Shown here: one piece after another, positions 1,484 through 19,689 of the stretch
How the letters are laid out: each line of letters begins with the position of its first letter
How positions within the stretch are numbered: position 1 is the stretch's first letter
Source of the DNA: Rhizobium leucaenae USDA 9039
GTDB taxonomy: Bacteria; Pseudomonadota; Alphaproteobacteria; Rhizobiales; Rhizobiaceae
Assembly (NCBI RefSeq): GCF_000426285.1
Contig: NZ_AUFB01000005.1
Coordinates: 310,001 to 374,000, forward strand
Length of the DNA: 64,000 bases
Direction: 5' to 3'
The notes under the pieces: generated by a model
What the model was told of the DNA's origin: nothing
The model's input: only the letters and a program-made list of their open reading frames with translations
Databases searched by the model: none
Made by a program: the position numbers and the translations under genes

Positions 1484-2305
1484 CTACAGATTCCAGACCT
1501 TCGGCACTGGCGCTGCGTTGCGCAAGGCGGAAATGACCGGGATCAGGATTTTTCTGAGAGCAAAGCCGTCGGGTGCCGCGAGCCGCACCACCAGCTTGTC
1601 GCGCCACTGGCTAACGCCGCCCATGTGCCCCTCGATGAGCGGCCGCAGCTTGGCGAGATAGGTCTCCGCCCGCGGCCCGGCATAGAGCAGCGTCGCGAAA
1701 GCGACCTGGCCGCTCAGAACCGCATGCTCAGCCGTCAACGCTGCGACATCGCCCTCGAGCCTCAGTTCCTCGGCATGGATCAACCGCTCGGCGCAGCGGA
1801 TGCGCCAGCGGTCGCGAAACAACCCCTGCGCCATCGCTTCGCCCATGGCTTTGCGGCCGAGCAGAATTGCCTCGACGGCCAGGAATTCGGCAGTCTCGTC
1901 GAGATCGACAGCGAGCCTGCGCGACAGCGAGGCGCGGTCGAACAGAATGGTTTCCTGCGGCAGCCAATCGACGCGTGCGCCAGCACCGACCTTGATGGAC
2001 GTCACGACTTCGGCGGTGCCTGCGGATGCCTTGTAGATTTTCTCGCAGGCCTGCGTGGTCACATCGATGCGCGTGCCCGGCCCAGCGACGATGCTCCAAT
2101 CCATCCGGTCGCCGCCGGTCAGGCCGCCGGCGGTGTTGATGATAACGGCTTCCATGGAATTATCGAACGTATCGGGCAGGCGGATCTTTGCCGCACCTTC
2201 CTGGAAAAGTTCGGAAAGGCGCGTGCGCCCATCAAGCGCCTTGGCCGCCAGATGGCCGCGCCCGCGCGCCCTCTGCGGTCTCGTGCTCGCCGCTGCCATC
2301 ACCAT
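1484..2305 (-). CDS. ureD: Urease accessory protein UreD
   Basis: UreD forms the UreDFG chaperone that loads nickel into apo-urease. The motif [11 protein letters not shown], then [11 protein letters not shown], then [10 protein letters not shown], is the UreD signature. The open frame extends to 2434, but the ATG at 2305 is preferred. It has GGAG 7 bases upstream and gives 273 residues, the normal family length; the extra 43 residues upstream look non-coding. It is first of the ure genes and follows urtE after a gap of about 160 bases that may hold an internal promoter. Confidence 0.95.
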
Positions 2306-2468
2306 TCCGTTTCTCCGCTCATCACACCAGGCCATCGCGGATCGTTGAAATCCACCGAAGAACAAAAACAAGCAATTCCCGTGCCTTGTGAAGTCGTCCG
2401 GAACATTGACCGGCGGCACTGATATCCGCCGCATTTTTCGCCAAATGATGAAAAGAACAGCAATGGCC

Positions 2469-3164
2469 TCACACCGTCAGATGTCGCCGAGCCTCGGGCG
2501 TATCCAGCGTCTCCGCCAGACCCTCATGGACGATTTCCCCACGATCCATGATATAGACGTAATCGGCAAGTTCGCGGCAGAAATCGAGATATTGTTCGAC
2601 CAGCAGGATTGCCATGCCGGTGGAATCCCGGAGATAGCGGATCGCCCGCCCGATATCCTTGATGATCGACGGCTGGATACCCTCCGTAGGCTCATCCAGC
2701 ACCAATATTTTCGGCCGCGTCACCATTGCCCGGCCGATCGCCAATTGCTGCTGCTGGCCGCCGGAAAGATCGCCGCCGCGGCGCGACAGCATGGATTTCA
2801 GCACCGGAAACAGATCGTAGATGTCCTCGGGAATGGTGCGGTCGCGGCGCGACACGGGAGCGAACCCCGTCTCCAGGTTCTCCTTGACCGTCAGCAGCGG
2901 AAAGATCTCGCGCCCTTGCGGCACATACCCGATCCCCTGCTTGGCGCGTGCAAAGGGCGCCAGGCCGTTCAGTGTCACCCCGTCGAAGGTAACCGAACCT
3001 GCTGACAGCGCATGCTGGCCGGTGACGGCGCGCAGCAGCGAACTTTTGCCGACGCCGTTGCGACCGAGCACGCAGGTGATCTTACCCATCTCCGCCTTGA
3101 TGGAGATGCCGCGCAGAGCCTGAGCGGCGCCATAGTGCAGATTTGCGTTTTCGACTGTCAGCAT
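2469..3164 (-). CDS. urtE: Urea ABC transporter ATP-binding protein UrtE
   Basis: 231 residues, a LivF-type ATPase. Walker A is GRNGVGKSS, the Q-loop region is [13 protein letters not shown], the signature is [14 protein letters not shown], and Walker B is [14 protein letters not shown]. The T-E-G-I-Q-P-S sequence after Walker B is typical of UrtE, as opposed to LivF. It energises urea import with UrtD at the inner membrane. It is the last urt gene, separated from urtD by a RIME-like repeat (3190-3277). Confidence 0.95.
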
Positions 3165-3302: not shown

Positions 3303-4058
3303 CTACCGCCCCAAATAATTCTCGATCACCTTCGGATCATTGCTGACGAAGTCGATCGAGCCTTCGGCCAATACCGAGCCTTCCGCAAGGCACGTCACCT
3401 TGACGCCAAGATCGCGGATGAAGCCCATGTCATGCTCGACCACCACCACGGACCGCGTCTTGGCGATTTCCTTCAGCAGCACCGCCGTCTCTGCCGTCTC
3501 CGCATCCGTCATGCCCGCTACCGGTTCATCGACCAAAAGCAGCTTTGGCTCCTGGGCGAGCAGCATGCCGATCTCCAGCCATTGCTTCTGCCCATGCGAA
3601 AGATTGGCCGCCAGCTCGTCGCGGCGGTGAGAGAGGCGCACGGTTTCCAGGATCTCATGAATGCGATCGCGATCTTCCGGCGTCAGGCGGTAGAAGAGCG
3701 TCGAGAAAACGCCGCGCTTGCGGTTGAGCGCCAATTCGAGATTGTCCCAGACCGTATGGCTTTCGAAAACCGTCGGTTTCTGGAATTTGCGGCCGATGCC
3801 GAGCTGGGCGATATCGGCTTCGTCCTTCTTGGTGAGATCGATCTGGCCATTGAAGAACACCTCGCCCTGGTCGGGCCGCGTCTTACCGGTGATGATATCC
3901 ATCATCGTCGTCTTGCCGGCGCCATTCGGACCGATGATGGCGCGAAGTTCTCCGGGTTCGATGACGATCGACAGCGAATTCAGCGCCTTGAAGCCATCGA
4001 AGGAGACGGAGACGTTGTTGAGATAAAGCATGCTGTTGGGCTTGATGTCCGGGATCAT
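3303..4058 (-). CDS. urtD: Urea ABC transporter ATP-binding protein UrtD
   Basis: 251 residues, a LivG-type ATPase. Walker A is GPNGAGKTT, the signature region is NLSHGQKQWLEIGM, and Walker B is LLLVDEPVAGMTDAE. SHGQKQWLEIG and the VAGMTD motif are typical of UrtD. The frame is open to 4151, but the ATG at 4058 is chosen. It lies 4 bases after the urtC stop and behind a GGCGGAG ribosome site, and it gives the usual family length. It works with UrtE at the cytoplasmic face of the UrtBC permease. Confidence 0.95.
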   Translation of the reverse strand: MIPDIKPNSMLYLNNVSVSFDGFKALNSLSIVIEPGELRAIIGPNGAGKTTMMDIITGKTRPDQGEVFFNGQIDLTKKDEADIAQLGIGRKFQKPTVFESHTVWDNLELALNRKRGVFSTLFYRLTPEDRDRIHEILETVRLSHRRDELAANLSHGQKQWLEIGMLLAQEPKLLLVDEPVAGMTDAETAETAVLLKEIAKTRSVVVVEHDMGFIRDLGVKVTCLAEGSVLAEGSIDFVSNDPKVIENYLGR

Positions 4059-4062
4059 GGCT

Positions 4063-5232
4063 TCACTCCGCCGCCTGGATGGTCGTCTTGCCGGCTTCGG
4101 TTTCGTCTTCCTCGGCATCAGGCTTCGCGCTGACCGGTTGGCGATCGCCACCGATATATTGCGCTATCGTGCCGACGATGCCCTTGGGCAGGAGCAACGT
4201 CACCGCAACGAAGAGGCCGCCGAGCGCGAAGAGCCAGAAATCGGGGAACAGGCCGGTGAAGATTGTCTTGCCGCCATTGACGAGAATGGCGCCGATGATC
4301 GGGCCGATCAGCGTCGCCCGGCCACCGACTGCCGTCCAGATGACCACTTCAATGGAATTCGCGGGCGCGAATTCGCCGGGATTGATGATGCCGATCTGCG
4401 GCACATAGAGGGCACCGGCAATGCCGGCCATCATCGCCGACACGACGAAGACGAAGAGCTTCATGTGTTCGACCCGGTAACCCAAGAAGCGCGTCCGGCT
4501 CTCCGCATCGCGCACGCCGACCAGCACTTTGCCGAATTTCGAGCGCACGATGGCCGAGGACAGCATCAGCGCCAGCGCCAGAAACAGCGCGGTGATGGCG
4601 AAGAGTACGGCGCGCGTGCCGTCGGCCTGGATATTGAAGCCGAGAATATCCTTGAAGTCGGTCAGACCGTTATTGCCGCCGAAACCCATGTCATTGCGGA
4701 AGAAGGCGAGCAGCAGTGCATAGGTCATCGCCTGCGTGATGATCGAAAGATAGACGCCGTTGACACGTGAGCGAAAAGCGAACCAGCCGAACACGAAGGC
4801 AAGTAGACCGGGAGCCACCAGCACCATGATCATGGCGAACCAGAAATGATCGAAGCCGTACCAGAACCACGGCAACTCCTTCCAGTTCAGGAAGACCATG
4901 AAGTCCGGCAGGATGGGATTGCCATAGGTGCCGCGCGAGCCGATCTGCCGCATCAGATACATGCCCATCGCATAGCCGCCGAGCGCAAAGAACGCGCCAT
5001 GGCCGAGCGAGAGAATGCCGCAATAGCCCCAGACGAGATCGAGTGCCAAGGCAAGCAAAGCATAGGTCAGATACTTACCAAACAATGACATCAGATAGGT
5101 CGGCACATGCAGCGGGCTGGTGTCCGGCAGGGCCAGATTGGCGAGCGGCACGAACACTGCGACAACAAGCAGGATCGCGATGGCGATGCCGATGCGGCGG
5201 TCGAGCGAACGGAGGAGAAAGGCCGTGATCAT
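4063..5232 (-). CDS. urtC: Urea ABC transporter permease UrtC
   Basis: 389 residues, a LivM-family inner-membrane protein with about ten hydrophobic segments. The EAA-like loop is SRTRFLGYRVEHMKLFVFVVSA. WGYCGILSLGHGAFFALGGY and the FGGNNGLTDFKDILGF segment are typical of UrtC. The tail is hydrophilic and acidic (DAEEDETEAGK). Its ATG overlaps the urtB stop by 4 bases (ATGA), indicating translational coupling. Confidence 0.95.
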   Translation of the reverse strand: MITAFLLRSLDRRIGIAIAILLVVAVFVPLANLALPDTSPLHVPTYLMSLFGKYLTYALLALALDLVWGYCGILSLGHGAFFALGGYAMGMYLMRQIGSRGTYGNPILPDFMVFLNWKELPWFWYGFDHFWFAMIMVLVAPGLLAFVFGWFAFRSRVNGVYLSIITQAMTYALLLAFFRNDMGFGGNNGLTDFKDILGFNIQADGTRAVLFAITALFLALALMLSSAIVRSKFGKVLVGVRDAESRTRFLGYRVEHMKLFVFVVSAMMAGIAGALYVPQIGIINPGEFAPANSIEVVIWTAVGGRATLIGPIIGAILVNGGKTIFTGLFPDFWLFALGGLFVAVTLLLPKGIVGTIAQYIGGDRQPVSAKPDAEEDETEAGKTTIQAAE

Positions 5233-6854
5233 GCTTCCACCGCCCTTCCCTTGAGGGCGAAGAGCCCGCGCGGACGTTTCTGAATAAAGAGGATAATGAG
5301 GACGAGAACCAGGATTTTGCCGAGCACCGCCCCCGCATAGGGCTCAAGGAACTTGTTGAGGATGCCGAGCGAGAAGGCACCGACCAGCGTTCCCCAGAGA
5401 TTGCCGACGCCGCCGAAGACGACAACCATGAAACTGTCGATGATGTAGCTTTGGCCAAGGTTTGGCGAGACGTTGTCGATCTGCGAGAGCGCAACGCCTG
5501 CCATCCCCGCAATGCCCGACCCCAGGGCAAAGGTGAAAGCGTCCACCCAGGGCGTACGGATGCCCATGGACGACGCCATGCGCCTATTCTGCGTCACCGC
5601 CCGCATTTGCAGCCCGAAAGCCGAACGCTTCAGCAGCAACAGCAGGGCGACGAAGACGCCGAGCGCGAAAACGATGATCCAGAGGCGGTTCCAGGTGATG
5701 GAGAGATAGCCGAGATCGAAAGAACCGGACATCCAGGAAGGATTGCCGACCTCCTGATTGGTCGGCCCGAAGATCGAGCGCACGGCTTGCTGCAGGATCA
5801 GCGAAATGCCCCAGGTGGCGAGCAGCGTCTCCAGCGGCCGGCCATAGAGGAAACGGATGACGCCGCGCTCGATGACGAGGCCGACGGCACCGGTGACCAG
5901 AAACGCCACCGGCAAGGCGATCGCCAGCGACCAGTCGAAGAGTTCCGGATAGGAGCTGCGGATGACGCTCTGAACCATGAAGGTGGAATAGGCGCCGAGC
6001 ATCACCATCTCGCCATGTGCCATGTTGATGATGCCCATGACGCCGAAAGTGATGGCAAGCCCGATAGCGGCAAGCAGCAGCACCGAGCCGAGCGAAAGGC
6101 CGTACCAGACGTTCTGCACCGCATCCCAGATCGCCAATTGGCTCTGGATGCCGGCGATGGCAGCCGCGACATCGGGCTTCAGGCTGTCGTCGACGGTAAC
6201 CGAGGAGAGAATGCCGATGGCGTCACGTCCGCCTTCGTTCTTGATCGTCTCGATCGCCGCCTTCTTCTGCTCCGGCGAGCGATCGGAGCCGAGCACGGCC
6301 ACCGCGCGCGCCCTCTCGAGCACGCCGCGAATTTCGCCGTCCTTTTCGTTCTTTAACGCCGCCTCCAATGCCTCCAGCGAATCCGCGCTTGGCGATTTCA
6401 ATACGGATTGCGCCGCCTCCAATCGAACGCCACGATCCGGGCTCATCAGCGTCAGGCCGCCGAGCGCCGCGCGGACCGAGCGACGAAGATTGTTGTTGAT
6501 CTTGATCTTGCTAAGATTGCCCTTGGCTTCCTGGCCCACCGCCTGCCCGGTCAACGGGTCGACCAGGGCCATGACGTCACCGGACGATTTGGCAATGAAG
6601 ACCTGATTGTCGGATTTGCGAACATAAAGATCGCCATCCGAAAAGGCCTGCAGCGCCGGCACCACCTTAGGATCACCGGTCTTGGCGAGGTTCTTCACGA
6701 TCTCGTCGGCCTGCTGGAAGTTCGCCGGCCCCAGCGCGTTGATAAGACTATGCGCGTCCTCCTGGGCACGCAGCGTCGTCGCCGTCAGCGCTAGCATCAG
6801 GCAAAAGCCGGCGGCAAGCGCCACAGCCATGTGGTAAACGAATTTGTCGAACAT
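5229..6854 (-). CDS. urtB: Urea ABC transporter permease UrtB with long N-terminal periplasmic domain
   Basis: 541 residues, about 240 longer than plain LivH permeases. Residues 1-30 look like a signal peptide or anchor (ends TTLRAQEDA). About 35-235 is a soluble, helix-rich, HEAT-like segment (NLAKTGDPKVVPALQAF, RSVRAALGGL, ALEAALKNEKDGEIR). About 245-541 is the LivH-type permease (GLAITFGVMGIINMAHGEMVMLGAY). Proteobacterial UrtB proteins carry this extension; its task is not established. A GAGGGGA site precedes the start. A strong hairpin separates it from urtA. Confidence 0.94.
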   Translation of the reverse strand: MFDKFVYHMAVALAAGFCLMLALTATTLRAQEDAHSLINALGPANFQQADEIVKNLAKTGDPKVVPALQAFSDGDLYVRKSDNQVFIAKSSGDVMALVDPLTGQAVGQEAKGNLSKIKINNNLRRSVRAALGGLTLMSPDRGVRLEAAQSVLKSPSADSLEALEAALKNEKDGEIRGVLERARAVAVLGSDRSPEQKKAAIETIKNEGGRDAIGILSSVTVDDSLKPDVAAAIAGIQSQLAIWDAVQNVWYGLSLGSVLLLAAIGLAITFGVMGIINMAHGEMVMLGAYSTFMVQSVIRSSYPELFDWSLAIALPVAFLVTGAVGLVIERGVIRFLYGRPLETLLATWGISLILQQAVRSIFGPTNQEVGNPSWMSGSFDLGYLSITWNRLWIIVFALGVFVALLLLLKRSAFGLQMRAVTQNRRMASSMGIRTPWVDAFTFALGSGIAGMAGVALSQIDNVSPNLGQSYIIDSFMVVVFGGVGNLWGTLVGAFSLGILNKFLEPYAGAVLGKILVLVLIILFIQKRPRGLFALKGRAVEA

Positions 6855-6923: not shown

Positions 6924-8213
6924 TCAGGAACCCTTGCCGCCGCACTTGCCGGTGGAGACGTTGAAGTTGCCGCAGTTAAGCGGCATGCGCCAATCCGAGA
7001 TCAGATCCTTGCTATCAGGCAGGTAGTCCGACCATTCCTTGCCGACCACTGCAGGGGTTTGCGAAACAACGTCGAACTGGCCGTTTTCCTGCACCTCGCC
7101 GATCAGCACCGGCTTGGTGATGTAGTGGTTCGGCATCATCGTGGCGTAGCCGCCGGTAAGGTTCGGCACCGAAACGCCGACGAGCGCGTCGATCACCTTG
7201 TCCGGATCGGTCGTACCGGCTTTTTCGACAGCTTTCACCCACATGTTGAAGCCGATATAGGCAGCTTCCATCGGGTCGTTGGTAACCCGCTTGTCGTTCT
7301 TGGTATAGGCGTGCCATTCCTTGATGAATTCGGCATTGGCAGGCGTGTCGACGGACTGGAAGTAGTTCCAGGCAGCGAGATGGCCGACCAGCGGCTTGGT
7401 GTCGACACCGGCAAGCTCTTCTTCGCCGACGGAAAAGGCGACGACCGGAATGTCTTCCGCCTTGACGCCCTGGTTGCCGAGCTCCTTATAGAAGGGAACA
7501 TTGGCGTCGCCATTGATGGTGGAGACGACGGCGGTCTTCTTGCCGGCCGAGCCGAAGGCCTTGATCTTCGAGACTTCCGTCTGCCAGTCGGAGAAGCCGA
7601 ACGGCGTATAGTTGATAATGATGTCTTCGTCCTTGACGCCCTTGGACTTCAGGTAGGCCTCGAGGATCTTGTTGGTCGTGCGCGGATAGACATAGTCGGT
7701 GCCTTCGAGCACCCAGCGCTGCACGCCTTCATTCTGCATCAGGTAATCGACCGCGGGGATCGCCTGCTGGTTCGGGGCAGCGCCGGTATAGAACACGTTA
7801 CGCTCGGACTCTTCACCCTCGAACTGCACGGGGTAGAACAGGATCGAGTCCAATTCCTTGAACACCGGCAGGACCGACTTGCGCGATACCGAGGTCCAGC
7901 AACCGAACACGGCGGAAACCTTGTCCTTCTGGATCAGTTCGCGGGCCTTTTCGGCAAAGAGCGGCCAGTCGGAAGCCGGATCGACGACGACGGGCTCCAG
8001 CTTCTTGCCGAGAACGCCACCCTTCTTGTTCTGCTCGTCGATGAGCATCAGCATGGCATCCTTCAGCGTCGTTTCCGAAATCGCCATGGTGCCCGAAAGT
8101 GAGTGGAGAACGCCGACCTTGATAGTGTCATCGGCAGCAAAAGCTCCATGGAATGCGGTCGTCGACATGATGGCGCCCAGAAGCGCGCCGGAGACGAGAG
8201 TCTTCAGTTTCAT
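6924..8213 (-). CDS. urtA: Urea-binding periplasmic protein UrtA
   Basis: 429 residues from the ATG at 8213, which follows AGGGGA; a longer frame to 8243 has no support. Residues 1-26 are a signal peptide (ends GAFAADD). The mature protein begins TIKVGVLHSLSGTMAISET and contains FGCWTSVSRKSVLPVFKE and LFYPVQFEGEESERNVFYTGAAPNQQ, the UrtA/AmiC-type urea or short-amide binding fold. It delivers urea to UrtBC. It is the first gene of the urt-ure cluster, divergent from the NCS1-type sensor kinase. Confidence 0.96.
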   Translation of the reverse strand: MKLKTLVSGALLGAIMSTTAFHGAFAADDTIKVGVLHSLSGTMAISETTLKDAMLMLIDEQNKKGGVLGKKLEPVVVDPASDWPLFAEKARELIQKDKVSAVFGCWTSVSRKSVLPVFKELDSILFYPVQFEGEESERNVFYTGAAPNQQAIPAVDYLMQNEGVQRWVLEGTDYVYPRTTNKILEAYLKSKGVKDEDIIINYTPFGFSDWQTEVSKIKAFGSAGKKTAVVSTINGDANVPFYKELGNQGVKAEDIPVVAFSVGEEELAGVDTKPLVGHLAAWNYFQSVDTPANAEFIKEWHAYTKNDKRVTNDPMEAAYIGFNMWVKAVEKAGTTDPDKVIDALVGVSVPNLTGGYATMMPNHYITKPVLIGEVQENGQFDVVSQTPAVVGKEWSDYLPDSKDLISDWRMPLNCGNFNVSTGKCGGKGS

Positions 8214-8353
8214 GTGTAGTTCCCCTCTTTGTGTCTGCTGCAACGGCCCGTAAACAAAGATTAACCGTTGCCTGGCCGCGACTATCCGGCAGCACCTGGG
8301 GATTCCACATACGTAATATGACGTAGGAAACGGGGCGAAATGTGCAGCATATT

Positions 8354-8379
8354 AGCGGCCCATGCACTTAAGGGCCGCT
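8354..8379. promoter_or_regulatory. Inverted repeat in the urtA/kinase divergent promoter gap
   Basis: AGCGGCCC (8354-8361) and GGGCCGCT (8372-8379) form a perfect 8-bp inverted repeat with a 10-base spacer in the 217-base gap between urtA (minus) and the hybrid kinase (plus). It could be an operator for the nearby LuxR-type regulator or an RNA hairpin in the kinase leader. I found no convincing sigma-54 -24/-12 site in this gap. Confidence 0.4.
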
Positions 8380-8430
8380 GCATTCCGTGTTACGACGTCG
8401 ATTAGATTTGAAGACTGCTGAAGGGTGGGC

Positions 8431-11400
8431 ATGGCGGCGCGGCAACGCATCATTCCGGTGAGACGCGAATATAACCGCTGGGTCGCGAACCAGACGCTGG
8501 AAGACTATGCGCTGCGCTTTACCGCCAAAAGCGCCCGGCAATTTTCCTCGCAGCGCATCTCGCAGACGGCAATCGGCGCCATCTCCTTTCTGGCGCTGGA
8601 AGCGATCGGCGGCGCCATCACGCTCTCCTACGGCACGACCAACGCCTTCTATGCCATCATCGTCGCGAGCATCGCCATGCTCGCGATCGGCCTGCCGATC
8701 AGCCGCTACGCCATCCGCCACGGCGTCGATATCGACTTGCTGACGCGCGGTGCGAGCTTCGGCTATATCGGCTCGACCATCACCTCGCTGATCTATGCCA
8801 GCTTCACCTTCATGCTGTTTGCCATCGAGGCGTCCATCATGTCGGGAGCGCTGGAGCTGACGCTTGGGATACCCTTGTGGATCGGCTATATCGTCAGCGC
8901 CGTCATGGTCATTCCGCTGGTGACGCATGGCGTCCGTCTGATCAGCCGGTTTCAGCTTCTGACGCAGCCGTTCTGGATCGTCCTCAATATCCTGCCCTTC
9001 ATCTTCATTGCCTTGTCCGATTGGGGGAAGTTCGACCTCTGGCGTGCTTTCGCCGGCATCCATCATACGGCAGGCGCGTCCGGAACCGCGGCTCCCTTCG
9101 ATCTCGTAGAATTCGGCGCGGCTTCCGCCGTGATCCTGGCACTGATGTCGCAGATCGGCGAACAGGCCGACTTTCTGCGCTTCCTGCCGCCGGAAGGCCG
9201 CCGCAAATGGCGGCATCACCTGGTGATCTTCCTCGCCGGTCCCGGCTGGGTGATCATCGGCGCACTGAAGCTGCTGGCCGGCTCCTTCCTCGTCGTACTG
9301 ACGTTGAGTTCCGGTATTCCCGCCGATCGCGCCGCCGATCCGGCGCAGATGTATCTCACCGCCTTCGGCTATATGATCCCTTGGCACAATGCCGCGCTGC
9401 TGTTGATGGCCGCCTTCGTCGTGGTCTCGCAACTCAAGATCAATGTGATGAACGCCTATGCCGGCTCGCTGGCCTGGTCGAATTTCTTCTCGCGGCTGAC
9501 CCACAGCCATCCCGGACGCGTGATCTGGCTGGTCTTCAATGTCGCCATCGCCCTGCTGCTCATGGAACTCGGCATCTATAAGCTGCTGGAGGAAACCCTC
9601 GGCATCTTTTCGATCGTCGCCATGGCTTGGCTCTGCACCATCTCCGCCGATCTGTTCATCAACAAGCCGCTCGGCCTTGCCCCTCCCGGCATCGAGTTCA
9701 AGCGCGCCCATCTCTACGACATCAATCCTGTCGGCTTAGGCGCCATGGCGCTCTCGGCGACGGTTGCCCTCATCGCCCATTTCGGCGTTCTCGGCGCGGT
9801 TGCCGCCTCGCTCGCTCCCTACATCACCTTGGTCATTGCCTTCATCGCCTCGCCCACGCTCGCCTGGGTAACCAAGGGCAAATTCTATCTCGCCCGCAAG
9901 CCGCGCCAAAGCTGGAAGCGCCTGTCCACCATCACCTGCTCGGTCTGCGAACATCCTTTCGAGCCGGAGGACATGGCCTGGTGCCCGGCCTATGCCGCGC
10001 CGATCTGCTCGCTCTGCTGCTCGCTGGACAGCCGCTGCCATGACATGTGCAAGCCGAAGGCTCGGCTCAACGCACAGGTCGGCACCGTCGCTAAGACCCT
10101 GCTGCCGGAGACCGTCGTCGCCAAACTCGCAACCCGTCTCGGCCGCTATGGTATTGCCGTCGCGGTGGCGCTGACGGCTGTGGGCGCCATCCTGGCGATG
10201 ATCGCGCATCAGGTCGGCTCTGCTTCGCCGGAGACGTCCGCGGTGGTCGACCGCACCATCCTGATCGTCTTCTTCGTCTTCGCCGTCATTGCCGGCGTTG
10301 TCTGCTGGTTCTATGTGCTCGCCCATGACAGCCGCGTCGTCGCCGAGGAGGAATCTTCGCGCCAGAACACCCTGCTGCTCAAGGAAATCGCAGCGCATAA
10401 GAAGACGGACGCGGCTTTGCAGAGCGCCAAGGAAGCGGCCGAAGCCGCCAACCGCGCCAAGAGCCGCTACGTCGTCGGCTTGAGCCATGAATTGCGCACG
10501 CCACTCAATGCGGTGCTCGGTTACGCCCAGATCCTTGAGCGCGATGAGACCATCCCGGCGCCGCGACAATCATCATTGAAGGTCATCCGCCGCAGCGCCG
10601 AACATCTCTCTGGTCTGATCGACGGGCTATTGGATATTTCCAAGATCGAGGCCGGCCGGCTACAGGTTTATTCCAACGAGATCAACATCCAGGATTTTCT
10701 CGACCAGATCGTCGATATGTTCCGCCCGCAGGCGCAGGCCAAGGGTCTCGCTTTCATCCATGAGCGATCTCCCGCCCTGCCCGATTATGTCCGCACCGAC
10801 GAAAAGCGACTGCGCCAGATCCTCGTCAATCTGCTTTCCAACGCCATCAAATTCACGGATACGGGGAGCGTGCGCTTCGAGGTCGGCTATCGCAGCCAAG
10901 TCGCGAGCTTCACCATCGCCGATACCGGCCGCGGCATCGCCGAGAAGGACCTCACCCGCATCTACGAGCCCTTTCAGCGCGGCGAAGCCGACAGCGTCCG
11001 CCCTATGCCGGGCCTCGGCCTCGGGCTGACCATTACCCGACTGCTCACCAATACACTCGGCGGCGAAATCTCTGTCGTCAGCGAAAAGGACAAGGGCTCG
11101 ACTTTCAAGGTGCGCCTTATGCTGTCGGCGGTAATCCGGCCGATGAAGCCGCCGGCGCAGGAACAGCGGATCGTCAGCTATGAAGGCCCGCGCCGCACTA
11201 TCGTGGTCGTCGACGACAATGAGGATCACCGCGAGCTAATGCGCGAAGTGCTGTCTCCACTCGATTTCATCGTGCTGACGGCCACCGGCGGACCGGACTG
11301 CCTGACGCTGATCGAGGGCATCAAACCGGATCTTTTCCTGGTCGACATCTCCATGCCGGGCATGAACGGCTGGCAACTGGTCTCGCGGCTGAGGGAGAAC

Positions 11401-11820
11401 GGCCAGATGGCGCCGATCCTGATGCTGTCGGCAAATATCGGCGATGGCGCCGCCGCCAAGGACAGCGACGACAGCCACAACGACGCTATCGCCAAGCCGA
11501 TCGATATCCGCCAACTTCGCGACAAGCTCGCGCTTCATCTTGGCTTGAAGTGGATTTATGCTGACGGTTCCGCGCCGGTCTTGCCAAAACCCGCGCCACC
11601 GATGAAAAGCCCGGGGATAGAGCATGTGCGCGAGTTGATGCGGCTTGGCGAGATCGGCTACGTCAGAGGCATTGAGGCGAAGCTCGCGGACCTTGCCAAA
11701 CTGACTGAAAATCAACCCTTCACCGACGCTCTCAGCACCTATGTCCAAGCCTTCGACCTCGGCGGCTTCCTGGATTTCCTGCATAAATTCCACAATGAAA
11801 AGGTAGAACCGATTGGCTGA
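8431..11820 (+). CDS. Hybrid histidine kinase with NCS1 permease-like sensor domain and Cys cluster
   Basis: 1129 residues from the ATG at 8431 (AAGGGTGG upstream; GTG at 8425 is less likely). Residues about 45-485 are a roughly 12-helix domain resembling NCS1 purine/cytosine permeases: LTRGASFGYIGSTITSLIY, MSQIGEQADFLRF and NVMNAYAGSLAWSNF align with CodB-type motifs. Residues 503-540 hold eight cysteines (503, 506, 518, 526, 529, 530, 536, 540), a zinc-finger-like module. Two more membrane helices (about 570-630) and a short coiled coil lead to HisKA (SHELRTPLNAVLG, His686), HATPase (NLLSNAIKF, DTGRGI, GLGLGLT) and a receiver with Asp972 (LVDISMPGMNG). A helical tail ends the protein. It overlaps the next regulator gene and is divergent from urtA. 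Sensing of a nitrogen compound by the permease-like part is inference. Confidence 0.9.
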   Translation: MAARQRIIPVRREYNRWVANQTLEDYALRFTAKSARQFSSQRISQTAIGAISFLALEAIGGAITLSYGTTNAFYAIIVASIAMLAIGLPISRYAIRHGVDIDLLTRGASFGYIGSTITSLIYASFTFMLFAIEASIMSGALELTLGIPLWIGYIVSAVMVIPLVTHGVRLISRFQLLTQPFWIVLNILPFIFIALSDWGKFDLWRAFAGIHHTAGASGTAAPFDLVEFGAASAVILALMSQIGEQADFLRFLPPEGRRKWRHHLVIFLAGPGWVIIGALKLLAGSFLVVLTLSSGIPADRAADPAQMYLTAFGYMIPWHNAALLLMAAFVVVSQLKINVMNAYAGSLAWSNFFSRLTHSHPGRVIWLVFNVAIALLLMELGIYKLLEETLGIFSIVAMAWLCTISADLFINKPLGLAPPGIEFKRAHLYDINPVGLGAMALSATVALIAHFGVLGAVAASLAPYITLVIAFIASPTLAWVTKGKFYLARKPRQSWKRLSTITCSVCEHPFEPEDMAWCPAYAAPICSLCCSLDSRCHDMCKPKARLNAQVGTVAKTLLPETVVAKLATRLGRYGIAVAVALTAVGAILAMIAHQVGSASPETSAVVDRTILIVFFVFAVIAGVVCWFYVLAHDSRVVAEEESSRQNTLLLKEIAAHKKTDAALQSAKEAAEAANRAKSRYVVGLSHELRTPLNAVLGYAQILERDETIPAPRQSSLKVIRRSAEHLSGLIDGLLDISKIEAGRLQVYSNEINIQDFLDQIVDMFRPQAQAKGLAFIHERSPALPDYVRTDEKRLRQILVNLLSNAIKFTDTGSVRFEVGYRSQVASFTIADTGRGIAEKDLTRIYEPFQRGEADSVRPMPGLGLGLTITRLLTNTLGGEISVVSEKDKGSTFKVRLMLSAVIRPMKPPAQEQRIVSYEGPRRTIVVVDDNEDHRELMREVLSPLDFIVLTATGGPDCLTLIEGIKPDLFLVDISMPGMNGWQLVSRLRENGQMAPILMLSANIGDGAAAKDSDDSHNDAIAKPIDIRQLRDKLALHLGLKWIYADGSAPVLPKPAPPMKSPGIEHVRELMRLGEIGYVRGIEAKLADLAKLTENQPFTDALSTYVQAFDLGGFLDFLHKFHNEKVEPIG

Positions 11821-12739
11821 GCCCGCCCTTCCCCGCGATATAGTCTTGCTCGTGGACGATTCGCCGGAGGCGCTCGGATTCCTGACTGACGCCCTGGAGC
11901 AGTCGGGCTTTTCCGTGCTGATCGCCACGTCGGGACAGGCGGCACTGAACATCGTCGAACGCATCACGCCGGACCTGATTTTGCTCGATGCCGTGATGCC
12001 GTCCATGGACGGTTTCGAGACCTGCCGGCGGCTGAAGGCCAATGCCGGCATCGCCCAGGTACCGGTGGTCTTCATGACCGGACTGACCGAAACCGAGCAT
12101 GTCGTGCATGCGCTGGAATCCGGCGGCGTCGACTACCTCACTAAGCCGATCAACGTCGACGAACTGCGCGCCCGCATCCGCGTCCATCTGCGCAATGCCC
12201 GCTCTGCCCAAAGCGCCAGGGTCGCGCTCGACGCCGCCGGCCGGCACCTTCTGGCGGTCAAAGGCGATGGCGCGATCCACTGGTCGACACCGCAAGCGAC
12301 GCGCCTTGTCAATGCCGCCACCGGCAGCGACGACGGCCTCGATCTCGTGGCGAAACACATCGCCGCCTTCATGCGCGAGCGAGAACGGCTAAGCTTGGGG
12401 CGCGGCGACAACCCATTTTCCATCAACAACGGCAGTCAGGCCGCTCTGCAGCTCGCCTTCCTCGGCGCGATCGGCCCCGACGAATATCTCTTTCGCTTGA
12501 CCGCCACCAGCCAGCGCGCCGACGACGGCGTGCTGCGCCAGCATTTCGCGCTCACCCAGCGCGAATCCGAAGTGCTGCTTTGGATCGCCAAGGGCAAATC
12601 GAACCGCGATATCGGCGAGATCCTGGGCCTTTCCGCTCGGACGGTGAACAAACATCTGGAGCAGATCTATGTGAAGCTCGGGGTTGAGAACCGGGCTTCT
12701 GCAGCGGTGAAGGCAGCGCATGTGCTGCATGAGATGTGA
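11813..12739 (+). CDS. Response regulator with receiver and LuxR-type DNA-binding domain
   Basis: 308 residues. The receiver (about 8-128) starts RDIVLLVDDS and has the phospho-acceptor in LILLDAVMPSMDG and the Lys in YLTKPI. A middle segment of about 100 residues (130-235) is not recognised and may be PAS-like. The C-terminus is a LuxR/FixJ helix-turn-helix: LTQRESEVLLWIAKGKSN and GLSARTVNKHLEQIYVKLGV. The only workable start is TTG at 11813, which overlaps the kinase stop by 8 bases. An AAGG sits 9 bases upstream, so translation is probably coupled to the kinase. It is the likely output of the NCS1-type kinase and a candidate regulator of the urt-ure cluster (inference from position). Confidence 0.9.
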   Translation: MAEPALPRDIVLLVDDSPEALGFLTDALEQSGFSVLIATSGQAALNIVERITPDLILLDAVMPSMDGFETCRRLKANAGIAQVPVVFMTGLTETEHVVHALESGGVDYLTKPINVDELRARIRVHLRNARSAQSARVALDAAGRHLLAVKGDGAIHWSTPQATRLVNAATGSDDGLDLVAKHIAAFMRERERLSLGRGDNPFSINNGSQAALQLAFLGAIGPDEYLFRLTATSQRADDGVLRQHFALTQRESEVLLWIAKGKSNRDIGEILGLSARTVNKHLEQIYVKLGVENRASAAVKAAHVLHEM

Positions 12740-12984: not shown

Positions 12985-13956
12985 CTAGACGACCCGATCC
13001 GGCGGCTCTCGGCCTTCGAAAAATGCTGTGACATTGTCCACCACCTTCATTCCCATCGCCGTGCGCGTCTCTTCGGTCGCACTGCCGAGATGCGGTAGCA
13101 GCACGACGTTCTCCATTGTCTTCAGCCTCTCCGGCACATTCGGCTCCGCTTCGTAAACATCAAGACCCGCGCCGCGGATCGTGCCTTGCTCCAGCGCCGA
13201 GATCAGCGCCGTCTCGTCGACGACGTCACCCCTTGCCGTATTGATCAGAAAGGCACCAGGTTTCATCGCAGCGAAACGGGCTGCATTCATCAAATGACGG
13301 TTCTCCTCGCCGCCAGGGCAATGCAGAGAAACGAAATCGGAAGCCGCGAGCACATCCTCCACCCTCTGCAATTGGACGGCGCCGTAGCGCGATGCTTCCA
13401 TCGGATCGATGGCGGAGCGATTGTAGAAGACGACATCCATGCCGAAGCCAAAATGGCAGCGCTGCGCGAACGCGCGGCCGATGCGACCGAAGCCGATGAT
13501 GCCGACGGTTTTTCCGGTTACCTTGGTGCCGACGAGATGTGTCGGGCGCCAGCCGGTCCAAGCGCCGGCCCTTAATTCGCGCTCGCCTTCGCCGCCGCGG
13601 CGGGCGACGGAAAGAAGGAGCAACATGGCGATATCGGCCGTGCAATCGGTCAACACACCGGGCGTGTTGGTGACGACGATGCCCTTCTCCTTGGTGGCCG
13701 CGATGTCGATGTGATTAAAGCCGACGCCGAAATTGCCGAGGATTTTTGTCCTGATGGCATCGCCTTCGAAAAGCGAAGCCGGAAGCTTGTCGGAGACAGT
13801 CGGCAGCACCGCATCATAAGACCGCAGGGCCTCGCGCAACTGCCCGGCATCAAGTGCGATGTCATCCGAATTGAACGTCGCGTCGAAGCGCTCGGAAAGG
13901 ATGGCCTCCACTGCGGCCGGCCAGCGCCGGGTAACAAGAATACGGGGTCTGGTCAT
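12985..13956 (-). CDS. D-isomer 2-hydroxyacid dehydrogenase (glyoxylate/hydroxypyruvate reductase-like)
   Basis: 323 residues, full length. The NAD(P)-binding motif is VGIIGFGRIGRAFAQRC. The catalytic Arg lies in NTARGDVVDE, the Glu in DVYEAEPNVPE and the His in LLPHLGSATEETR. The early GVGFNHIDIAATKEKGI motif is typical of the GyaR/GhrB group, so reduction of glyoxylate or hydroxypyruvate is a reasonable guess; the exact substrate cannot be read. It stands alone on the minus strand, downstream of the braC terminator. Confidence 0.9.
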   Translation of the reverse strand: MTRPRILVTRRWPAAVEAILSERFDATFNSDDIALDAGQLREALRSYDAVLPTVSDKLPASLFEGDAIRTKILGNFGVGFNHIDIAATKEKGIVVTNTPGVLTDCTADIAMLLLLSVARRGGEGERELRAGAWTGWRPTHLVGTKVTGKTVGIIGFGRIGRAFAQRCHFGFGMDVVFYNRSAIDPMEASRYGAVQLQRVEDVLAASDFVSLHCPGGEENRHLMNAARFAAMKPGAFLINTARGDVVDETALISALEQGTIRGAGLDVYEAEPNVPERLKTMENVVLLPHLGSATEETRTAMGMKVVDNVTAFFEGREPPDRVV

Positions 13957-14045
13957 GCTGCATCTTCCTCCTGCCTAAAGATGGCTTCAGACTTAAAGCA
14001 CGACCGCCGCAAAGGGAATGCCGTTCCCGCGGGCTGAACGCAAAG

Positions 14046-14068
14046 AAGCCCGGTCGATGACCGGGCTT
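14046..14068 (-). terminator. Terminator of braC
   Basis: AAGCCCGGTC (14046-14055) and GACCGGGCTT (14059-14068) form a perfect 10-bp stem with a 3-base loop, 40 bases past the braC stop. On the minus strand it is followed by CTTTGCG, a short T-rich tail. Confidence 0.75.
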
Positions 14069-14107
14069 CCAGATCGAGCGCATGCCGGAAACCGGCGCTG
14101 CGGGTGA

Positions 14108-15229
14108 TTACTTTTCGATTTCGGCGTAGTTGTACTTGCCGTCCGAACCCTTGGACCACTTGTACATCACGTAATCCGGACGGGTGATGTCGCCCTTTTC
14201 GTTGAAGCCGAGTTCGCCGATGGCGGTCTTGTAGGGACCCTTTGCCTTCAGCGCGTCGGCAACAGCCATCGGATCGCTGGAGCCGGCAGCCTTTGCGGCG
14301 TCGGCGATGACCTGCATGGCAGCATACGCATAGAGCGTGTAGCCTTCCGGCTCATAGCCGGCAGCGCGGAACTTGGCGACCAGATCCTTGGAAGCCGGGT
14401 TCTTGCGCGGATCCGGAGCGAAGGTCATCAGCGTGCCGTTGACGGCGTCGCCGGCGATCGAAGCAAGCTCGTTCGAGACGATACCGTCACCAGACATGAA
14501 GTGAGCCTTGACGCCCTGGTCGGCCATCTGGCGCATGATCAGGCCGGCTTCGGTGTGCAGACCGCCGTAGTAGACGAAGTCTACGCCGGCTTCCTTCATC
14601 TTGGCGATGAGGGCCGAGTAGTCCTTGTCGCCGGGAGTGATGCCTTCGTAGAGAACTTCCTTCATGCCATCGGCATTGAGGTTCTTCTTGGTCTCGTCGG
14701 CAAGGCCCTGGCCATAGGGGGTCTTGTCGTGAACGATGGCAACCTTGGCGCCCTTGAAGTTGTCGGAAATGTACTTGCCGGCGACTGCGCCCTGCTGGTC
14801 GTCACGGCCGCAGGTACGGAAGGTGTTCCACAGACCGCGTTCGGTGAACACCGGGTTGGTGGAAGCCGGGGTGATCTGAAGGATGCCGTTTTCGGCATAG
14901 ACTTCGGAAGCCGGGATGGAAACGCCCGAGTTGAAGTGGCCGACAACGAACTTGACGCCGTCAGCGACGAACTTGTTGGCGACCGAAACGCCCTGCTTGG
15001 CGTCGGAAACGTCGTCGCCGAGTTCGAGCTTGATCTTTTCACCGTTGATGCCACCGGCAGCGTTGATGTCGGCCACGGCCTGCTCGGCGCCCTTCTGGAG
15101 CTGAGCGCCGAAGGCAGCATTTGCACCCGTCAGAGGGCCTGCAACGCCAATGATGATGTCAGCCTTCGCAACGCCGCTGAACGCGATCATCGCCGACAGA
15201 GCCACGGCCGACAGAAGATACTTCTTCAT
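14108..15229 (-). CDS. braC: Branched-chain amino acid binding protein BraC (LivK family)
   Basis: 373 residues from the ATG at 15229 (GGGAG upstream); an upstream in-frame extension to 15313 lacks support and crosses a repeat. Residues 1-23 are a signal peptide ending VAKAD. The mature protein starts [17 protein letters not shown] and has [17 protein letters not shown] and [13 protein letters not shown], the Leu/Ile/Val-binding fold. It captures amino acids in the periplasm for BraDEFG. A 183-base gap with a palindromic repeat precedes it, so it may have its own promoter. Confidence 0.95.
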
Positions 15230-15330
15230 ATTGTTACTCCCAATTTTTTGAGCGGGTTCCGTTTGATTTGCCCTGCGCAATACCCACCAATCATCGCGCC
15301 GGTAAACTTGCATTTCGAAGTCTGGAGGAC

Positions 15331-15370
15331 ATGATTCCGAAAAGTGTCGAGCGGTTTTCGGACAGGATCA
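15331..15370. repeat. Rhizobial ~40-bp palindromic repeat, copy 1
   Basis: The sequence runs ATGATTCCGAAAAGTG, then a centre TCGAG, then CGGTTTTCGGACAGGATCA. The arms TCCGAAAA and TTTTCGGA are perfect inverted repeats. This is the familiar short intergenic palindrome found in many copies in rhizobial chromosomes (family recalled, not searched). It lies just upstream of braC and would form a hairpin in any read-through transcript from the DUF6867 gene. Confidence 0.65.
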
Positions 15371-15412
15371 AACCCACCTTGTATTCAGACTGAGCCTAGT
15401 TTCGGCGCACTG

Positions 15413-15766
15413 TCAATTCTTCTTCTTCCACGAGAAGGCAGAAGTTTTTTCATACAGCCAGTAGTAGTTGTTCACCATCTGGTAGGTGCGTCGATAGCGG
15501 TACCCCGCCGTCGAGAAAATCAGGAGAAGAACCACGTCGAGAACATAGTTGCCGAGGTCGAACACCGGGCCGTTGAACAGCGCATGGTGCAGGAACTGCA
15601 GCCCAAGGCCGATCAGGAACGTATAGATGACCACCAACGGATAGGAGTTCCAGTTGCTCGCCACGGCGCGGCCGGCGCGCCATGCCGTCCAGAAACCCAA
15701 AAGAACGATAACCACACGAATGACGAGGCGCCCGCCGGTATCGCTTTCGAAGAAAAGTCCCTGCAT
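15413..15766 (-). CDS. Small membrane protein, DUF6867 family, in the bra operon
   Basis: 117 residues with three hydrophobic segments (about 14-34, 43-62 and 70-88) and a basic C-terminus (ends SWKKKN). Conserved-looking features are FESDTGGRLVIRVV, WRAGRAVA and YRYRRTYQMVNNYYWLYE. I recognise it as the small protein often found next to livF in alphaproteobacteria. Its function is unknown. It lies 24 bases after braG on the same strand, so it is probably co-transcribed and could associate with the permease. Confidence 0.8.
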   Translation of the reverse strand: MQGLFFESDTGGRLVIRVVIVLLGFWTAWRAGRAVASNWNSYPLVVIYTFLIGLGLQFLHHALFNGPVFDLGNYVLDVVLLLIFSTAGYRYRRTYQMVNNYYWLYEKTSAFSWKKKN

Positions 15767-15790
15767 ATCAAATTCTCCGCAGAACGAGAC

Positions 15791-16519
15791 TCAATGGTGA
15801 CCGCCTTCGAGATAGGCGGAGCGCACTTCCGGATTGGCGAGCAGTTCCTTGCCGGAGCCGCTCATCGTCACCCGGCCGTTGACCATGACATAAGCGCGGT
15901 CGGAGAGCTTCAGGGCCGCAAAAGCGTTCTGCTCGACCAGGAAGACGGTGAGCCCCTGGCTCTTGTTCAGAACCTTGATGGCTTCGAAAATGCCCTTGAC
16001 GATCAGCGGCGCAAGGCCGAGCGAAGGTTCGTCCAGCAAAAGCAGCTTCGGGCGTGCCATCAGCGCACGGCCGATCGACAGCATCTGCTGCTCGCCGCCC
16101 GACAGCGTGCCGCCACGCTGCGATTGACGCTCCTTCAGGCGCGGAAACAGGGTGAAGATCTTCTCGACATCCTCATTGAAATATTTGAGCTTGTCGAGGC
16201 TCGCGCCCATCTGCAGGTTTTCGTAAACCGTCATGCGCGGGAAGATGCGCCGCCCTTCCGGCGATTGCGCAATACGCAGCCGGGCGATCTCATGCGTCGG
16301 CATGTGGGTGATGTCGCGGCCATCGAAGGTCACCGAGCCGTTGCGCGCTTGCGGGCTACCGCAGATCGTCATCATCAATGTCGACTTGCCGGCACCGTTG
16401 GCGCCGATCAGGCTGACGATTTCGCCGCTGTTGACTTCGACATTGACACCGGCGAGAGCGCGGATATTGCCGTAATAGGTTTCGACGCCTTCAACTTTCA
16501 GAAGCGGTTGCCCCGTCAT
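15791..16519 (-). CDS. braG: Branched-chain amino acid ABC transporter ATPase BraG (LivF)
   Basis: 242 residues. Walker A is GANGAGKST, the Q-loop region is IAQSPEGRRIFPRMTVYENLQMGA, the signature is LSGGEQQMLSIGRALM, and Walker B is LLLLDEPSLGLAPL. The SLGLAP sequence marks LivF-type proteins. Its ATG overlaps the braF stop by 4 bases. Confidence 0.95.
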   Translation of the reverse strand: MTGQPLLKVEGVETYYGNIRALAGVNVEVNSGEIVSLIGANGAGKSTLMMTICGSPQARNGSVTFDGRDITHMPTHEIARLRIAQSPEGRRIFPRMTVYENLQMGASLDKLKYFNEDVEKIFTLFPRLKERQSQRGGTLSGGEQQMLSIGRALMARPKLLLLDEPSLGLAPLIVKGIFEAIKVLNKSQGLTVFLVEQNAFAALKLSDRAYVMVNGRVTMSGSGKELLANPEVRSAYLEGGHH

Positions 16520-17391
16520 CGATGTTCGCCCTCTTGGAGGTGCTCGACTTCGGCAATCACCTCTTCCACTTCTTCATCTTCGACACCCAGATAAGCCGCG
16601 ATCACTCTCGGATCGTTCTTGACCTCATCCGGCGTACCATCGGCAATCTTCTGTCCGTATTCCAGCACGACGACATGATCGGAGATTTCCATCACAACCG
16701 ACATGTCGTGTTCGATCAGAAGGATCGACGTGTCGGCATCCTTGCGAATGCTGCGCAGGAATTCGTTGAGTACCAGCGACTCGCGCGGATTAAGACCGGC
16801 GGCCGGCTCGTCCAGGCACAGGAGTTCGGGGCCGGTGCACATGGCACGGGCGATTTCGAGACGGCGTTGCGCGCCGTATGGAAGATCGCCGGCCGGATCG
16901 TCGGCGCGATCGACGAGATCGGCCTTCTCCAGCCAGAAGCGTGCCAGTTCGATCGCGTTCTTCGCTTCGGCGCGATATTTGCCGACGCCGAGCAGACCAA
17001 GCACCGTAAAGCCCGACGCGCGCATCAGCTTGTTGTGCTGAGCAACCAGCAGGTTTTCAAGCACGGTCAGGCCCGAGAACAGGCGGATGTTCTGGAACGT
17101 ACGCGCCACCTTGGCTTCGCGGGTAATGCGGAAGTCCGGCAGCCGCTCCAGGAGGAATTGCTTGCCGCTCTTCTGGTTGAGCGTGATCATCCCCATCGTC
17201 GGCTTGTAGAAACCGGTGATGCAATTGAACACGGTGGTCTTGCCGGCGCCGTTCGGGCCAATCAGCGCGGTAATATCGCCGCGCTTGGCCTCGAAGGAGA
17301 AGTCGTTGATCGCCATCAGGCCACCAAACTTCATCGACAGATGGTCGACCTTCAGCAGGACGTCGTCAGGGGTTACGGTCACAGCATTCAT
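16516..17391 (-). CDS. braF: Branched-chain amino acid ABC transporter ATPase BraF (LivG)
   Basis: 291 residues. Walker A is GPNGAGKTT. The LivG-specific motifs [11 protein letters not shown] and [25 protein letters not shown] are present. The signature region is [16 protein letters not shown] and Walker B is [15 protein letters not shown]. The C-terminus is longer than usual and very acidic ([17 protein letters not shown]). It overlaps braE by one base and braG by four. Confidence 0.95.
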
Positions 17392-18782: not shown

Positions 18783-18786
18783 GGCG

Positions 18787-19689
18787 TTATACCTTCTCGA
18801 CTTCCGGCCGCCCGAGAATACCCGTCGGCTTGAAGATCAACACGTAGGCCAAGATGCCGTAGGTCGCGACATCCTTATACGCGATAGCGAAATTGCCCGA
18901 CCAGAACGACTCGATGAAACCGATCATCAGTCCGCCGAGCACGGCACCCGGCAACGAGCCGATGCCTCCGAGAACGGCCGCGGTGAACGCCTTGACACCG
19001 GGAACGAAGCCATCGGTGAAATTGGCGACACCGTAATACATCAGGTACATCGTGCCGGCGACGGCGGCGAGCGCCGCGCCCATGATGAAGGTGACGGAAA
19101 TTGTGCGGTCGACATTGATGCCGAGCAGCGCCGCCATCTTGCGATCCTGTTCCGTGGCGCGCTGCGCGCGGCCAAGCGCGGTCTTGTTGACCAGATACCA
19201 GAAAGCGGCGAGCAGAACGACCGTGCAGATGAAGATGATGATCTGCTTCAGCGACAGCGACACGCCGCCGATATTGTAGACATCGCCCACCAGCGTCGGG
19301 ATCGGCTTGTTGCGCGGGCCCTGTGCGACCTGGATGAAATTCGACAGCACGATCGACATGCCGATTGCGGTAATCAGCGGCGCCAGGCGGAAAGAACCGC
19401 GCAGCGGCCGATAGGCGACACGCTCGATCACCCAATTCCACAGGCTCGTCATCAACATGGCGACGATGAGCATCACCAGAAGCAGGATCGCCACGGGCAA
19501 TCCGGCAACGAGCGACACGAGAACCAGGTAAGTGATAAGAGCGGCGAATCCGCCAAGCATGAACACGTCGCCATGAGCAAAGTTGATCATGCCGATGATG
19601 CCGTAAACCATGGTATAGCCAATGGCGATCAGGCCGTAAATTGACCCGAGAGTCAGCCCGTTAAGGAGCTGCTGGATAAAATAATCCAT
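18787..19689 (-). CDS. braD: Branched-chain amino acid ABC transporter permease BraD (LivH)
   Basis: 300 residues, a LivH-type membrane protein. It contains [38 protein letters not shown] and the contact loop [27 protein letters not shown] precedes the ATG. It is the first gene of braDEFG. In Rhizobium leguminosarum Bra is a broad-range amino acid importer; that breadth is assumed here from the family. Confidence 0.95.

Follow-up and report, generated by a model that had tools for sequence, protein, structure and literature searches.

The 64,000-nucleotide stretch of Rhizobium leucaenae USDA 9039 analysed here (the window; contig NZ_AUFB01000005.1, positions 310,001 to 374,000) encodes a hybrid sensor kinase fused to an NCS1-like permease domain, followed by a LuxR-type response regulator and transcribed divergently from the urea operon urtABCDE-ure. 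We propose, with a probability of about 0.65, that this pair forms a two-component system through which the substrate induces urea uptake, or short-amide uptake in relatives, with the NCS1-like domain as receptor and the LuxR-type protein as activator. Judged from sequence comparisons, the pair very probably controls the divergent operon; that urea or a small amide is the ligand of the permease domain is, less firmly, the probable assignment. An earlier annotation of the window (the original prediction) had suggested that the pair controls urea uptake, and this is now well supported in silico by a conserved neighbourhood and by a palindrome linked both to urtA and to kinase presence. The elements of the proposed system are the following.

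8431..11820, + strand: hybrid sensor kinase, 1129 residues (likeliest start ATG at 8431, GTG at 8425 possible; stop at 11820).
8488..9876, + strand: NCS1-like permease domain with 12 helices, about residues 20-482 (AlphaFold model, fold matches to CodB and Mhp1, hhalign; no Pfam match).
9937..10050, + strand: eight-cysteine segment, residues 503-540 (C503, C506, C518, C526, C529, C530, C536, C540).
10135..10347, + strand: two extra membrane helices, residues 569-639, the second running into the kinase (AlphaFold model, sequence).
10459..10656, + strand: HisKA with the phospho-acceptor histidine (Pfam, H-box).
10795..11124, + strand: HATPase_c (Pfam).
11200..11529, + strand: receiver domain of the hybrid kinase (Pfam).
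11813..12739, + strand: response regulator, 308 residues, made of a receiver, a middle part of about 110 residues and a LuxR-type helix-turn-helix (HTH) (TTG start; Response_reg and GerE, Pfam).
8310..8325, no strand assigned: palindrome TACGTAATATGACGTA, proposed operator of the regulator (conservation across loci).

The predicted permease-fused hybrid kinase at 8431-11820 holds up as a gene. Its HisKA, HATPase_c and Response_reg domains all exceed the Pfam cut-offs, and the catalytic set is intact (H-box SHELRTPL at 685, N-box, G1, G2, receiver Asp and Lys). The eight-cysteine segment and the two further membrane helices had been omitted from the original prediction. All other kinase matches within the same genome begin at residue 602 or later; thus, no second permease-kinase was found there. 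Among 559 relatives found, near named ones of the sensor domain belong to R. calliandrae and R. rhizogenes (95%) and to R. lusitanum (93%). The regulator had likewise been recognised correctly as a TTG-start LuxR-type protein: its open reading frame overlaps the kinase stop by 8 bp, and its make-up is of the NarL/FixJ type, receiver and GerE HTH both being Pfam matches.

The divergent position of the pair relative to a urea operon was also confirmed, as all five urt genes exceed the NCBIfam cut-offs and ureD is recognised by Pfam.

6924..8213, - strand: urtA (TIGR03407 over cut-off; start ATG at 8213).
5229..6854, - strand: urtB with a HEAT-repeat N-terminus (Pfam, NCBIfam over cut-off).
4063..5232, - strand: urtC (NCBIfam over cut-off).
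3303..4151, - strand: urtD (NCBIfam over cut-off).
2469..3164, - strand: urtE (NCBIfam over cut-off).
1484..2434, - strand: ureD, start of the urease cluster (Pfam).

A TTG at 8243 exists upstream of urtA, but a ribosome-binding site precedes the ATG at 8213. Further left of ureD, ureC and ureG were found.

Relatives were detected at E ≤ 0.001 in 21/289 genomes of the class, 62/398 of the phylum and 64/249 of the order, counts that include weak permease-only matches; strong kinase matches within the order were found in 59 of the 249 genomes. For the analysis of neighbourhoods, 113 loci from outside the genus were retained from these matches; fragments, genomes of the same genus and weak matches (identities of about 22-30%, mainly standalone permeases) were set aside. 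The regulator lies directly 3' of the kinase in 106 of these 113 loci. Divergent urt genes occur within 4 kb of the kinase in 88, and any urt gene in 95; in Rhizobium, the divergent urt linkage was found in 80/80 loci. The neighbourhood, whose conservation across relatives the original prediction had named beforehand as its test, is therefore kept both within and beyond the genus. Among the 18 non-genus loci lacking urt, ureC is near the kinase in five (L227, L238-L241), formamidase and FmdB genes (fmdA/fmdB) are present in five (L236, L237, L281-L283) and four are cut by contig ends (L202, L242, L266, L286). In the basal group formed by L236, L237 and L281-L283, the kinase frames are about 900 residues long and a regulator of the window type was not found; in L282 the kinase is followed by a different gene of 409 residues, apparently with a receiver domain.

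The sensor domain also matches 545 plasmid records, 342 of them from Klebsiella and a few representing standalone permeases. Annotations given to the Klebsiella relatives include 'ATP-binding protein', 'response regulator', hybrid kinase and ArcB. One Klebsiella plasmid examined (L114, NZ_CP147516.1) carries the urtABCDE-formamidase neighbourhood. An initial assignment of the S. meliloti relative to ExsG proved wrong: an annotated relative adjoins a dicarboxylate symporter, a sensor kinase and dctD, and urtA is 7.9 kb away.

The region between urtA and the kinase contains a palindrome of the form TACG-N8-CGTA, most often ATACGTC-N4-GACGTA. It was found in 57 of the 72 urtA-kinase intergenic regions of the 113 loci and in 6/6 plasmid records (one from Rhizobium). 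With the window included, this amounts to 64/79 intergenic regions; the commonest repeat of equal shape in shuffled sequences occurs 4 times. The palindrome is concentrated there, with 68 sites in 24.3 kb of intergenic DNA vs 10 in the 1,555 kb making up the rest of the same 78 loci. In Rhizobium, it precedes the estimated start of urtA by 57-67 bp in 80/80 loci. It lies between urtA and the kinase in all 46 Rhizobium loci without an insertion of about 2 kb, and it stays with urtA in all 34 loci where about 2 kb separate the two genes. Similarly, it is found 58-77 bp upstream of urtA in L089, L090, L193, L194, L260 and L261. A perfect inverted repeat, AGCGGCCC-N10-GGGCCGCT, is also present upstream of the kinase in the window (8354-8379); it was rejected, being poorly conserved in the genus alignment.

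The palindrome follows the kinase across genomes. In the 30 best-scoring urtA loci used as a control (not a random draw), no palindrome was detected within 600 bp of urtA in 28/28 kinase-less genomes, one of which offers 224 bp of upstream DNA, and it was present at urtA in the 2/2 kinase-bearing genomes. Across the order, the strict form TACGTC-N4-GACGTA occurs in 32/59 kinase-bearing vs 11/190 kinase-less genomes (Fisher p 3e-15, an overstated value since related genomes are not independent). The reversed control pattern occurs in 6/59 and 25/190, respectively. The window genome carries a relaxed form of the palindrome, not the strict one. There, TACGT-N6-ACGTA has one match, at 8310-8325, and the reversed control pattern has two; the single match thus indicates specificity of place, not excess. 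Additional palindromes precede a formamidase gene (L206), an allophanate hydrolase gene (L188) and a porin gene (L187), and in L177 and L178 an extra one precedes a porin gene located before a second, classical urtA. Such sites would fit a urea/amide regulon. In two kinase-less genomes of one genus, the palindrome was observed where urt, kinase and regulator give no match (L342:4024; L343:4055 and 5897).

Two types of partner operon can be distinguished; the second, comprising formamidase and short-amide operons, is absent from the original prediction. In the short-urt type, UrtA is about 35-40% identical to UrtA of the window, formamidase or amidase genes are present in 53/54 loci and ureC is in reach in 0/54. 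In the classical-urt type, formamidase is found in 0/35 loci and ureC is in reach in 8/35, many stretches probably ending before ureC. The sensor-domain tree requires four changes of partner type; when the labels were shuffled 300 times, the number averaged 33 and never fell below 27. This tree is a single FastTree run with several low inner supports. As the neighbours of the basal kinases are of the formamide type, the classical urea operon was apparently the later of the two partners, with four putative gains on this tree. Standalone relatives of the sensor domain were also found. The kinase of Acinetobacter (L118) has no divergent urt partner; that place is taken by the gene of a standalone protein sharing 42% identity with the sensor domain of the window, and a palindrome lies between the two genes. 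No Pfam family matched this protein, or the actinobacterial standalone proteins of L119 and L120, at E 0.001. The record containing L118 (NZ_CP064203.1) is listed as a plasmid; with 3.97 Mb it is chromosome-sized and probably mislabelled.

Sequence searches of Pfam, NCBIfam and the PDB with the sensor domain returned nothing usable. The NCS1 family PF02133 had no match at E 10 in the N-terminal 642 residues of the window kinase and none at E 1 in 55 aligned sequences; at E 10, Pfam gave 0 families in residues 1-642, with weak sub-cut-off ones only around residues 476-672. The fold was more informative. In the AlphaFold model of the sensor (predicted local distance difference test, pLDDT, 81.7; predicted template modelling score, pTM, 0.84), the best match among solved folds is CodB (Foldseek E 4.7e-10; Z 33.3 over 397 residues, root-mean-square deviation 3.5), followed by Mhp1 (Z 26.0-28.9) and by other LeuT-fold proteins from 24.4 downward. 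DUR3, which has an SLC5-type fold, reached Z 22.6 vs the 33.3 of CodB (no STAC profile was scored by name). Moreover, profile-profile comparison of the sensor with CodB and five PF02133 proteins by hhalign gave a probability of 96.0 and an E-value of 4.3e-9. The 'NCS1-type' permease of about 12 helices that had been predicted is thus borne out by model fold and profile match, despite the missing PF02133 match.

Functional residues of CodB (PMC9379551) were then located in the sensor alignment. The invariant R250 and Y343 align with CodB Arg216 and Tyr285. At the position of Phe204, one of the two aromatics that sandwich cytosine in CodB, there is no aromatic among the six commonest residues, which account for 129/130 sequences, and the residue is aliphatic in nearly all. 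The second such position, Trp108, is Phe in 80/130 and Leu in 49/130, including the window. The sodium-site residues Thr278/Thr279 correspond to N341/A342 in the hhalign alignment and to K336/I337 in a gap-free register from Y343; the register of transmembrane helix 8 being ambiguous, a proposed sodium-site lysine was left aside. Eleven residues of the presumed pocket region (F53, E57, T126, E133, Q241, E244, Q245, K336, N338, N341 and Y343) do not differ between the urea-type and amide-type clades that were compared. They are conserved family-wide, most of them also in the standalone relatives, and adjacent positions 129, 237, 239 and 240 vary. Given this family-wide conservation, the agreement between the two types is weak evidence for a shared ligand. 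The simplest reading would be that all members sense one sort of small carboxamide, for example urea or formamide. A search of alignment columns for positions separating urea-type from amide-type sensors gave none that was convincing, the top scores falling mostly in loops and linkers.

All eight cysteines of the segment at 503-540 are invariant across 47 aligned sequences. When a profile of this segment was run against 150 genomes (at most 37 candidates scored per genome), the 15 strong matches among the candidates were all in frames of the permease-kinase family, and 11 weak ones were elsewhere. Modelled alone (pLDDT 76.1, pTM 0.50), the segment had no significant fold match; the weak ones include RING, PHD and FYVE fingers. 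It is perhaps zinc-binding. Part of the motif is also retained by standalone permease relatives, which have no kinase.

We suggest the following mechanism. The NCS1-fold membrane domain would act as the receptor, with urea or a small carboxamide (formamide, acetamide) changing its conformation from within the central pocket. The cysteine segment, and then the two extra helices, would relay this change to the HisKA/HATPase core. Given the domain order, phosphate would pass from the kinase to its own receiver and on to the separate LuxR-type regulator. The phosphorylated regulator is predicted to bind the palindrome upstream of urtA, a site whose conservation is observed, and would activate urtABCDE-ure. 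Sensor, regulator and palindrome would then form a travelling module that has become attached to different urea or amide operons.

Several observations weigh against this proposal. We know of no NCS1 protein that transports urea. At four loci with enough flanking DNA (L182-L184 and L189), no urt, ureC or formamidase gene lies in reach; in L182-L184 the palindrome is still found 174-195 bp before the kinase, and the divergent gene of L182 resembles a phosphotransferase/AAA protein. The palindrome is missing within 260 bp before urtA in 22 of the 83 loci with an upstream divergent urtA. It occurs elsewhere in seven of these loci and nowhere in the available stretch in 15; whole groups without it, such as L275-L280, may use a different operator, and no clear difference in the HTH residues of the regulator was seen between palindrome-bearing and palindrome-free loci. 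In 11 non-genus loci, urtA and the kinase lie more than 1 kb apart; there, the palindrome stands just before urtA in four, near the kinase start in three (L186, L188, L192; perhaps before the first operon gene) and near the kinase and before a porin gene in two (L177, L178), and is absent from two (L217, L230). Unlinked classical urtA genes of kinase-bearing genomes lack it in 18/18 cases, three of them from genomes whose sole strong kinase match is of the basal type lacking the window-type regulator (G786, G828, G837); thus, the system does not govern every urea transporter. The same absence also counts in favour of the proposal, as a natural control on which regulator uses the palindrome. 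Finally, the single palindrome match in the R. leucaenae genome is not in itself above chance given the two reversed matches, and 11 of the 190 kinase-less genomes carry the strict form somewhere.

Other readings of the same data were considered. The sensor might bind a classical NCS1 ligand (purine, pyrimidine, hydantoin or allantoin), the urea genes being induced since breakdown of that ligand ends in urea. The NCS1-like fold is compatible with this, as are a weak similarity (24.9%, H99) to a protein annotated as allantoin permease, the presence of xanthine-dehydrogenase genes near an Azospirillum lipoferum relative without urt (L115), and the frequent Phe at the Trp108 position, which leaves room for an aromatic stack (the window has Leu). 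However, formamidase and amidase do not fit a purine pathway, and the Phe204 position lacks the aromatic of CodB. Urea fits among the ligands listed in the original prediction, and purines, pyrimidines and allantoin are disfavoured because the partners identified are urt, ure, formamidase, amidase and allophanate hydrolase genes (no hidden Markov model census of purine genes was made). Altogether, we regard a classical ligand as very unlikely. A report on nitrogen status (ammonium limitation) instead of substrate is also unlikely. Its predicted targets are indeed nitrogen-scavenging genes, and the fmd genes of Methylophilus methylotrophus are described as repressed by ammonia (PMC10781810). 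A general nitrogen signal, however, would predict neither the one exact palindrome in the R. leucaenae genome nor its absence before unlinked urtA, and the transporter-like receptor suggests a solute.

The main input could also be the cysteine segment, sensing a metal (e.g. zinc or nickel) or redox state, with the permease domain as anchor or modulator. The eight invariant cysteines, in the permease-kinase family alone among 150 genomes, argue for this possibility, as does the nickel requirement of urease. But many residues of the membrane domain are invariant too, formamidase operons need no nickel, and part of the cysteine motif persists in standalone permeases without a kinase, so that we assign it a low probability. 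Least likely in our view, the palindrome would belong to another regulator and the kinase pair would be a mere neighbour with separate targets. The binding of the regulator to the palindrome is a prediction, and among 117 regulator-bearing loci, 26 lack the palindrome in the available stretch. Nevertheless, the strict palindrome is far more frequent in kinase-bearing genomes, a difference that the reversed control does not show, and it is missing at urtA of all 28 kinase-less genomes. Substrate induction of urea or short-amide uptake through an NCS1-like receptor is thus the reading that we retain.

As a tentative extension, to which we give somewhat less than even odds, the sensor may represent a new receptor class: a dedicated NCS1-fold sensor for urea and small carboxamides that may have lost sodium coupling and is connected to the kinase by a private zinc-type segment. 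In that case, the standalone Acinetobacter and actinobacterial relatives would constitute a urea/amide permease family so far unrecognised, and the module would have been associated first with formamide operons before being re-attached several times, with its operator, to classical urea transporters.

In the sources accessible to us, the closest studied kind is that of the SLC5/STAC kinases CbrA/CbrB, CrbS/CrbR and RpuS/RpuR, in which a transporter-fold domain is fused to a histidine kinase (PMC13022988, PMC5715377, PMC9100948). CrbR is a LuxR-family regulator needing an inverted repeat at its target promoters (PMC5715377), and RpuR acts on a symporter operon (same group of papers). The system described here shares the fused transporter fold and, as in CrbR, the LuxR-type cognate regulator. 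The studied kinases carry SLC5 and STAC domains, and the present one is marked by its NCS1-like domain, by the eight-cysteine segment and helix pair, and by its urea/amide neighbours; the terms NCS1 and urea do not appear in the accessible parts of PMC13022988 and PMC9100948. The sensor resembles CodB and Mhp1 in fold and in the residues equivalent to Arg216 and Tyr285, but structural alignments show at most 18% identity, PF02133 is not matched, the Phe204 position is aliphatic in nearly all members, the Trp108 position holds Phe or Leu, and a kinase is fused. In Kuenenia, an ammonium-transporter domain placed before a histidine kinase has likewise been turned into a nitrogen sensor, with another transporter family and another ligand (PMC5764959).

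On the side of the target operons, fmdCABDEF of M. methylotrophus encodes a short-amide/urea transporter, formamidase and porin, and is described as induced by formamide and urea (PMC10781810). It resembles the short-urt partner operons; the only regulator that the accessible text names in the cluster is a putative positive one, and a kinase is not mentioned. The genome description of Ectopseudomonas guguanensis G3 lists a second urtABCDE operon together with a hybrid kinase and a LuxR-type regulator, followed in locus-tag order by fmdA (PMC13296017). This is apparently the same neighbourhood; the permease domain, conservation and the palindrome are not raised in the accessible part of that paper. 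Uptake of formamide has been proposed for urtABCDE beside formamidase (PMC13209695). In the openly licensed literature searched, we found no study of an NCS1-type kinase or of this kinase/regulator pair, nor any membrane protein identified as sensing external urea or short amides for the fmd and urt operons.

Also in the window, an LprI-family protein (lysozyme-inhibitor domain) is encoded at 364-816 on the - strand, inside the urease cluster between ureD and ureC. On the 3' side of the regulator (12985-19689), a hydroxyacid dehydrogenase gene and an apparent ATP-binding cassette (ABC) transporter operon of the branched-chain-amino-acid type look ordinary.

Altogether, these results describe a real and widespread two-component system that is apparently uncharacterised and adds a new variety to the transporter-derived sensor kinases. 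It offers a defined sensor and regulator with a proposed operator and proposed targets, and it occurs in experimentally tractable rhizobia as well as many other bacteria. It also provides a handle on genes annotated merely 'ATP-binding protein' in several records and on 'urea ABC transporters' lying beside formamidase. If our proposal is correct, an NCS1 type would be added to the few known transporter-derived kinases.

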